A stretch of DNA of 64,000 nucleotides from Blastococcus sp. CT_GayMR16 (GTDB lineage: Bacteria > Actinomycetota > Actinomycetes > Mycobacteriales > Geodermatophilaceae). Positions within the stretch are counted from its first letter, which is position 1. Each line of letters starts with the position of its first letter. The position numbers were made by a program, and so were the translations under genes. Positions 39,923 to 41,965 of this stretch are shown piece after piece. The stretch covers positions 124,001-188,000 of the forward strand of contig NZ_SPQK01000006.1 in assembly GCF_004570875.1 (NCBI RefSeq). The letters run 5' to 3'. Below the pieces are notes generated by a model that saw only the letters and a list, made by a program, of their open reading frames with translations, was not told the origin of the DNA and did no database searches.

Positions 39923-40693
39923 TCAGCGGCGGTCGGCGAACAGGTCGCTCATCGCCGGGGGGACGTCCCGGTGGGTGCGGATCAGCCGGACGCGACCGCG
40001 GCCCATGGCGGCCAGATCCCGGCCCAGGTCGGTATCGACCTCGCCGGAGACGTCGACCAGCACGTCCAGTCGCGGGAGGCCGGCGGCCACCGTCCGCGGA
40101 TCGGGTCCGGCGTTGTGGACGCAGTCGGACAGGAGCAGCACCCGAGCGTCCCGCGGGGAGACGCCGGCGAGCTGACGGCGGGCCACCTCGAGGGCGAACG
40201 CCACGTTCGTCAGCCCGCCGGTGGGCACCCGGAGCAGGAGGTCCAGGAGAGCGGTCGGGTCGACGGGCTCGCCGAGCCGCAGCAGGACCGCGGCGTCGGA
40301 CCAGAAGGCGACCACCGCGACCCGGTCGCGGGCCAGCTCGCCGGCCAGCGCGCCGACGGCCGCGGCCGCCGTGCGTATCCGCTCGCCCCGCATGGATCCG
40401 GAGACGTCGACCACCAGGACGACCGACCGGCGCATCCGCCGGTGCTCCCGGACGACGACGTCGTCGTCGTCGGGGAATGGCGTCTCGGCCAGCGCATCCA
40501 GGGTGCGGTCGAGATCGATGTCGTCCGACCCCGCGCGCCACCGGACGCTGGTGAGCTCTCCACCCGCGGCCCGGGCGCGGTCGTCCTTCCGGGGGCGGGC
40601 GACGGCAAGCCGGCGGGCGATCTCCCGGGCCCGTCGTCGTGCGAGCGCGTCGCCGTCCGTCGTGGAGGCGTCGAGGTCGGCGAGGGCGATCAC
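39923..40693 (-). CDS. vWA domain protein, chelatase-D-like half
   Basis: From the GTG at 40693 this is a 256-residue protein with a vWA domain and intact MIDAS D96-V-S-G-S100 after SVVLVVDV. The reading frame is open and codon-like from 40927 onward, adding about 78 residues (with PKQLDTEPALFRPGSGG), but has no standard start there. The stop of the AAA+ gene (40928-40930) lies in this same frame. It may therefore be the second half of one AAA+/vWA protein interrupted by TGA, or a separate gene starting at the GTG. It would pair with the AAA+ ATPase as Mg-chelatase-type or MoxR/vWA systems do. Confidence 0.75.
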   Translation of the reverse strand: MIALADLDASTTDGDALARRRAREIARRLAVARPRKDDRARAAGGELTSVRWRAGSDDIDLDRTLDALAETPFPDDDDVVVREHRRMRRSVVLVVDVSGSMRGERIRTAAAAVGALAGELARDRVAVVAFWSDAAVLLRLGEPVDPTALLDLLLRVPTGGLTNVAFALEVARRQLAGVSPRDARVLLLSDCVHNAGPDPRTVAAGLPRLDVLVDVSGEVDTDLGRDLAAMGRGRVRLIRTHRDVPPAMSDLFADRR

Positions 40694-40927
40694 CTCGCCC
40701 TGCTCGTCGGAGGAAGCCGGGGTGGTGCCGCCGGCCGGGCCCGACGGGCCGTCGCGGCGAGGTGAACTCGTCGTGGTGACGAGGGCCTGCCCGCCGCTGC
40801 CGGGGCGGAAGAGTGCGGGCTCGGTGTCCAGTTGCTTGGGCCGGCGGCGGAGCGGCTGGAGGTGGCGGCGTGGTCCGGTGCCGCGCCGGCCCGGCCGCGA
40901 GACCGGCGAGTCCGCAGCGACTGTCCT

Positions 40928-41923
40928 TCAACCGGGGTCGGCCGCGGCGGGCTGCAGGAGGAAGTGGTCCTCCCAGATCTCCCGGAGCACTGCCTCCGGC
41001 GACTCCGCGAGGGTCTCGTCGAGGTGGATGCGACCCGACAGCGCCACGAGCATGGCGTCCAGCACCACGGCGGTGTAGTCACCGGGCAGGTCGCGCGGCG
41101 GAAGTTCCGAATCCACCTCGGGCAGCGCGACATCGCGCAGCGCGGCCAGCTGGGCAGCCACCAGCGCCACGTCGATGGCGCCGCGCACACTGCTGCCCTG
41201 GCGGACGGCCTCGCATTCCCGGGTCGCCCTCGTCACGGCGACCGCGTCGGCGATCAGCCGGCCGGAGTCCACCTCGGTCCGCCAGGAGACGATGCCCCGT
41301 TCTGCGGCGGGGTCCTGGTAGTCGACGGCGAGGCGGCACAGGCGGTCCAGGACGCCCGACGACAGCCGCGTCGTCCCGATGTTGTCGTAGGGGTTCATCG
41401 AGGCGACGACCCGGAAGGTCGACCGGGCCTCCACCGTGCCCAGGCGCGGCACGGTGATGCGTCGCTCGGCCATCGCGGTGAGCAGTGTGTTGAGCGTGTC
41501 CTCCGGCGCGCGGTTGAACTCCTCCACGTACAGGAAGCCCCCGCTGCGCATGGCGGTCACCAGCGGTCCGGCGACGAAGTTGTCCTCGGTGTAGTCCTCC
41601 CGCAGGACCCGGGCCGGGTTGTGGTGACCGACGAGTCGCGCCGGGGTGAGGTCGGCGTTGCCCTCGACGAAGAGCAGGGGGATGCCCCACTCGTGGGTGA
41701 TCGACCGCAGCAGGGTGGATTTCGAGGTCCCCGGCGGGCCCTCGATGAGGACGTCGCGGCCTGCCGCGATGGCCGCCAGCAGCAGGTCCAGTTCCCGTTC
41801 CCTGCCGACCAGGTGCGTGGCGATCCGGGTGCGCAGCTCGCGGACGGCGGCACCGTCGACCCGGGTGACCCGGACACCGGTGATGTCGGTATCGGGCTGG
41901 GTGCCGGTGGTGATCTCGCTCGT
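40928..41923 (-). CDS. MoxR/Mg-chelatase-type AAA+ ATPase with non-standard start
   Basis: The frame encodes a full AAA+ domain: Walker A GPPGTSKST, Walker B GGFLYVEEFNRAP, and VASMNPYDNIGTTRLSSGVL with the sensor region. The only standard start is a GTG at 41560, which would cut off Walker A and cannot give an active enzyme. The best full start is ACG at 41921-41923, in the context CGAGGAG-CACGCC-ACG, giving 331 residues beginning (M)SEITTGTQPDTD. An ATG mutated to ACG, a sequence error or genuine ACG use are all possible. It follows the CoA-transferase gene on the same strand. Confidence 0.7.
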   Translation of the reverse strand, partial: TSEITTGTQPDTDITGVRVTRVDGAAVRELRTRIATHLVGRERELDLLLAAIAAGRDVLIEGPPGTSKSTLLRSITHEWGIPLLFVEGNADLTPARLVGHHNPARVLREDYTEDNFVAGPLVTAMRSGGFLYVEEFNRAPEDTLNTLLTAMAERRITVPRLGTVEARSTFRVVASMNPYDNIGTTRLSSGVLDRLCRLAVDYQDPAAERGIVSWRTEVDSGRLIADAVAVTRATRECEAVRQGSSVRGAIDVALVAAQLAALRDVALPEVDSELPPRDLPGDYTAVVLDAMLVALSGRIHLDETLAESPEAVLREIWEDHFLLQPAAADPG

Positions 41924-41965
41924 GGCGTGCTCCTCGGGGTGACGGCGGACAGGGCGGGGGAGTTC

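Follow-up and report, generated by a model that had tools for sequence, protein, structure and literature searches.

A conserved in-frame UGA between the AAA+ and vWA domains of a mycofactocin-associated actinobacterial gene points to probable programmed stop codon readthrough

Results

The window, our term for the whole 64,000-nucleotide stretch of Blastococcus sp. CT_GayMR16 DNA analyzed here, carries on its minus strand a MoxR-type AAA+ open reading frame (40928..41923; 331 aa) that extends from an ACG codon at 41923 to a TGA and ends in ...LLQPAAADPG immediately before this stop. The ORF scores above the Pfam gathering thresholds for both AAA_5 (87 bits) and AAA_3 (61 bits), it contains the Walker A motif GPPGTSKS (41717..41740), and NorQ/CbbQ are among its closest solved structures. 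After the TGA (40928..40930), the same minus-strand frame stays open from 40927 down to a second stop (TGA 39925-39923), and this downstream part (39923..40927; 334 aa plus the stop) matches VWA_2 with 56 bits and bears a MIDAS motif, DVSGSM (40391..40408), whose residues, 174-179, are invariant among orthologues. The structure model of the vWA part has moderate confidence overall, and Foldseek placed the MIDAS domains of NorD and Rea1 among its closest solved structures. The locus thus holds both halves of a MoxR AAA+/vWA system: an AAA+ domain with a Walker A motif and a vWA domain with a DxSxS MIDAS.

Between the two domains lies a linker (40694..40927) that reads R-x-V-x-A-D-S-P ... PLRRRPKQL ... 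and that is of low confidence in the structure model; judging from that model, it is probably flexible. The original prediction had placed the AAA+ stop (TGA 40930-40928) in frame with the vWA ORF and had described 40927-40693 as open, with GTG 40693 as the first standard start. Reading the ORFs and the frame directly bore out both statements, coordinates included: across the 234 bases between the TGA and this GTG (40691..40693), we found no ATG, GTG, or TTG in the AAA+/vWA frame. Nor does the AAA+ ORF contain an ATG, GTG, or TTG upstream of its Walker A motif. We placed its start at ACG 41923-41921 from homology and from a Shine-Dalgarno-like GAGGAG (41930..41935) located 6 nt upstream. In Modestobacter and other Geodermatophilaceae, this position holds CTG (CTG ACC GAG CAC), with GAGGAG-like sites before it, and these codons suggest that the AAA+/vWA operon may use a weak, non-standard start.

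We gathered orthologues from 61 related genomes, 399 genomes of the order, a named genome collection, and 198 genomes of the class, located the AAA+ stop in each, and read the frame onward. Removal of near-identical junctions left 107 distinct orthologous junctions, and the stop codon was TGA in every one (107/107). The arrangement of the window gene, TGA followed by AGR with the vWA coding sequence in the AAA+ frame, was present in 104 of these; the exceptions were L074, which has a -1-frameshift arrangement, and two loci that are partial or degenerate (L075 and L077). Nine more TGA-type orthologues came later from two Rhodococcus plasmids and the class-level search, bringing the set to about 113 distinct. 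Our full-length set (n = 102) consists of the 104 minus L014, whose vWA coding sequence is interrupted after 125 codons, and L078, which is cut short. A few copies are decayed: L077 and L014 have frame breaks, and L172 has an extra TGA within its AAA+ part.

TGA-type orthologues occur in at least eight actinobacterial families, with hosts in Geodermatophilaceae, Nocardiaceae (Rhodococcus and Williamsia), Gordonia, Pseudonocardia, Kineosporia, Streptosporangiaceae, Cryobacterium, Microbacterium, other Microbacteriaceae, and Granulicoccus (Propionibacteriaceae). When 67 AAA+ sequences were placed in a tree, those of the TGA type (33 were sampled) formed one group with 100/97 support. Two records likely reflect misbinning or mislabeled assemblies: a Mucilaginibacter MAG contig (L121) that looks actinobacterial inside a Bacteroidota MAG, and a junction labeled Kitasatospora arboriphila (L128) that is Williamsia-like.

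This distribution bears directly on one reading offered by the original prediction, namely that a single protein had been broken by a point mutation. A sequencing error or a pseudogene would belong to the same class of explanation, for which nothing speaks but the in-frame stop itself. The same TGA is found in more than 100 distinct orthologues, closed isolate replicons included, and both the codon and its context are fixed in isolates and closed replicons of many families. A point mutation is thereby ruled out, the probability of this whole class is negligible, and, judged by this comparison of sequences, the AAA+/vWA locus is not a broken gene.

The alignment of the orthologous proteins begins at the very first residue past the TGA. 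Over codons 1-9 after the stop, pN/pS was 0.41 in frame 0, compared to 0.88 in frame +1 and 2.29 in frame -1, while the end of the AAA+ ORF, which served as a control, gave 0.30 in frame 0. The residues following the TGA conform to a conserved string, R-x-(V/I)-x-A-(D/E)-(S/T)-P, in which codon 2 is loosely constrained and clear selection on the amino acid begins no earlier than codon 3. The original prediction had noted coding-type third positions between 40927 and 40693, and both the alignment from residue 1 and the frame-0 ratio agree with it: by these sequence criteria, the linker after the stop is translated as protein.

We found no conserved start codon within the first 130 codons after the stop, where ATG, GTG, or TTG was present in no more than 42% of orthologues at any column. 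At the column of GTG 40693, the vWA start proposed in the original prediction, the figure was just 22%, which runs counter to the possibility that orthologues are two proteins with the vWA beginning at the equivalent of this codon. Moreover, 11 of the 102 full-length orthologues lacked ATG, GTG, and TTG throughout the first 78 codons after the stop, the length of the open stretch noted in the original prediction, and in Rhodococcus ruber the first ATG after the stop is codon 49. RefSeq annotates the loci on the Rhodococcus plasmids (L193 and L194) as two separate genes, a MoxR ATPase and a VWA protein, leaving 48 codons after the stop unannotated in R. ruber and 15 in R. qingshengii; current annotation thus omits conserved protein sequence. 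These two-gene annotations are what favors a separate vWA gene whose ordinary start would lie downstream (GTG 40693, for example), with an untranslated linker. We consider such a gene very unlikely, since the linker is conserved as protein right up to the stop, the orthologues have no start position in common, and the 48 codons that pass without an ATG in R. ruber are mostly conserved linker.

Relatives of the TGA-type genes join the two domains by other means. In another family of the phylum, one relative (L182) has an uninterrupted AAA+-vWA ORF with the same linker, in which PLSRKPKVL replaces PLRRRPKQL. A related group, made up of L203-L205 and L074 (100/97 support in the tree of 67 AAA+ sequences), has CAT TTT TTC, and with it a T6 run, near the AAA+ end in GC-rich DNA, and its vWA is in the -1 frame; here T_TTT_TTC is a probable U_UUU_UUC frameshift site. 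A paralogous family shows 46-54% identity in the AAA+ part. Its members are either fused or carry G_GGA_AAA one codon before a TGA, their vWA being in the -1 frame and GAGGAG frequently lying upstream; the latter are probable cases of programmed -1 frameshifting, judging from heptamer and frame. Further paralogues have less typical G-rich runs at the position of G_GGA_AAA. Paralogue loci include the window genome's own frameshift-type paralogue (L080, contig C28:339-1160), L023-L026, L088, L089, and L098, in several genomes near mftC. The chlD-type layout, with a slippery heptamer followed by a -1-frame vWA, is therefore found in the L203-L205/L074 sister lineage and in paralogues but not at the window gene, where the vWA is in frame 0.

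We also compared codon usage around the stop, which in the window reads GGT-TGA-AGG (40925..40933, minus strand). The codon after the TGA was AGA in 62 and AGG in 40 of the full-length orthologues, that is, AGR in 102/102, against a background of 3.9% AGR among the remaining Arg codons of these two ORFs and of 0-13% at 13 other conserved Arg columns. Before the TGA, GGT was used by 80 of the 102 (78%), compared to 13% of Gly codons elsewhere. Among neighboring mft genes, an AGR triplet followed the TGA in 0/66. The excess of AGR and GGT at the stop indicates that the bases around it are selected beyond amino-acid needs. No conserved RNA structure downstream of the TGA was found among the orthologues, so that any signal would need to be a short one close to the stop. 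In E. coli, tRNA-Trp is especially liable to misread a UGA when the next base is A (Engelberg-Kulka 1981, cited in PMC5289835). A search for other readthrough genes with the same 12-mer gave 13 further sites in the window genome, none of which resembles the end of a gene continued by an in-frame extension; at one of them (L214), long frames are open to either side, but a gene in another frame probably covers the site.

The invariance of AGR also weighs on the main rival explanation, in which ribosomes terminate at the UGA and reinitiate within a few codons on a non-standard codon (e.g., GUC or AUC at codon 3), yielding a separate, low-level vWA protein. Such reinitiation would fit the onset of strong amino-acid conservation at codon 3, and odd starts may occur in this operon, since ACG or CTG seems to serve as the start of the AAA+ gene. 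However, it would leave the AGR unexplained, and it is at odds with codon 3 itself, which is mostly GTC, with the far better start GTG, one mutation away, in only 6 of the 107 junctions, and which reads GCG in two orthologues and, in R. qingshengii, GAG. The purine-rich stretch is, in addition, too near codon 3 to act as a Shine-Dalgarno sequence, and relatives are fused or have the vWA in the -1 frame. We therefore judge reinitiation to be unlikely. The split gene with an unusual start that the original prediction had offered as its second reading is similarly disfavored by the lack of a conserved start and by the fused or frameshift-joined relatives.

Two other ways of reaching the vWA were considered and rejected: initiation in the -1 frame at a TTG that overlaps the stop (TTGA), as the base before the TGA can be T, C, A, or G and pN/pS in this frame is 2.29, and an RF2-type +1 shift at GGT-TGA, as the vWA lies in frame 0. 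In-frame stop hopping, in which the peptidyl-tRNA bypasses the UGA and the fusion is still made without insertion of a residue, is discussed as possible in a review (PMC5009743), and sequence alone does not separate bypass from readthrough. Nevertheless, no matching take-off and landing codons are conserved, with GGT upstream and AGR followed by variable codons downstream, and a hop seems to us highly improbable.

The UGA might instead encode selenocysteine, and the window genome does have a tRNA-Sec close to a SelB gene (contig C11:253181-255668), which suggests that the host probably makes selenoproteins. Yet among 25 other genomes with the same TGA, tRNA-Sec was not above the family cut-off in 23, the two in which it was being those of Gordonia rhizosphera and Pseudonocardia parietis. 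Since most of the TGA hosts tested thus lack tRNA-Sec, selenocysteine cannot be the general explanation. The fused relative L182 has no Cys at the stop position, and no conserved hairpin follows the UGA, so that selenocysteine insertion is extremely improbable.

The recurrent neighbors of the gene in orthologue genomes are MftC, MftD, MftE, and MftF, an MftA-like peptide ending in MCGVY, and mycofactocin-coupled SDR oxidoreductases. In the sample of the order, mftC was present in 47 of the 47 genomes with an AAA+ match at E < 1e-100, compared to 205 of 399 overall, counts that are not phylogenetically independent. In the window, the upstream neighbor of the gene is a CoA transferase, with P450-, ferredoxin-, and MFS-like ORFs (named by eye) around it, and in the window genome mftC is on contig C28.

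Discussion

The AAA+/vWA locus combines the features of a readthrough gene, with an in-frame stop kept across distant species, selection on the frame after the stop, no conserved start, and a conserved stop context. We infer from these that programmed UGA readthrough probably makes two proteins from this one gene. Most ribosomes would terminate at the TGA, and their product would be a MoxR-type AAA+ ATPase of about 331 aa. A minority, held by a local signal, Pro-Gly(GGU)-UGA-AGR, would decode the UGA with a near-cognate tRNA, most likely tRNA-Trp, and would continue in frame through the flexible linker into the vWA domain, and their product would be a fusion (AAA+-linker-vWA) about 666 aa long. 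Short and long forms would probably assemble together into hexamers with a vWA/MIDAS domain on just part of the subunits, and the rate of readthrough would then set the ratio of AAA+ to vWA.

MoxR AAA+ proteins with vWA partners are remodeling or metal-insertion chaperones, and a hexamer of NorQ binds one NorD (PMC9976466). Given this stoichiometry and the NorD/Rea1-like vWA of the window gene, we infer that the subunits with a vWA domain would be a minority provided by readthrough. The resulting rings may serve mycofactocin-linked enzymes as a remodeling chaperone. The NorQ/NorD and CbbQ/CbbO systems (PMC9976466) likewise consist of a MoxR AAA+ protein and a vWA protein with a MIDAS, although these are encoded by two separate genes, whereas the window gene has a single frame with a UGA and a mycofactocin-linked context.

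In the chlD/bchD-type chelatase genes, as proposed for the window gene, an AAA+ protein alone and an AAA+-vWA fusion arise by recoding between the domains. For the chlD genes, which are distantly related to the window gene, measurements in E. coli put frameshifting between AAA+ and vWA at 10-63% (Antonov et al. 2013, PMC3711429), and it has been argued to give both chelatase subunits from one gene (2022, PMC9227772). The window gene differs in that its vWA is in the same frame, with a UGA to be read through and no slippery run. The original prediction had pointed to BchD-like chelatase-type proteins, with AAA+, linker, and vWA in one chain; the resemblance to BchD is only distant, with scores of 27.8 and 30.2 bits against the BchD-ChlD NCBIfam model (equivalog cut-off, 499.55) and of 29.6 and 41 bits against Cob-chelat-sub (cut-off, 779.45).

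Bacterial selenoprotein genes also contain an in-frame UGA within their coding sequence, but most of the TGA hosts that we tested lack tRNA-Sec. Among viruses, the coat/A1 gene of Q-beta is a stop codon readthrough gene. The window gene would share with such viral systems, which include gammaretroviral gag-pol (PMC5009743), a leaky in-frame stop and a minor, C-terminally extended product; it differs from them as a bacterial chromosomal gene found across actinobacterial orders, whose relatives use frameshift layouts or fusion. Readthrough replaces frameshifting in some retroviruses, though not in RF2 or antizyme genes (2016 review, PMC5009743). We found no report of UGA readthrough in an AAA+/vWA gene in the literature searched, with subscription journals mostly outside its scope.

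We think it likely, with more reserve than for readthrough itself, that GGU-UGA-AGR is a dedicated, non-selenocysteine readthrough cassette that fixes the ratio of AAA+ to AAA+-vWA, that has been interchangeable in evolution with -1 frameshifting and with fusion, and that serves a maturation machine of mycofactocin-dependent metabolism. Conserved, functional stop codon readthrough in bacterial chromosomal genes has rarely been documented beyond selenoproteins. Related genes appear to reach the same two-product outcome by readthrough, by -1 frameshifting, or by fusion, and this interchangeability of recoding mechanisms would then be directly testable. If true, our proposal would explain in simple genetic terms why MoxR machines might have AAA+ and vWA at a fixed ratio, and the finding draws attention to a part of the mycofactocin system that has been overlooked.
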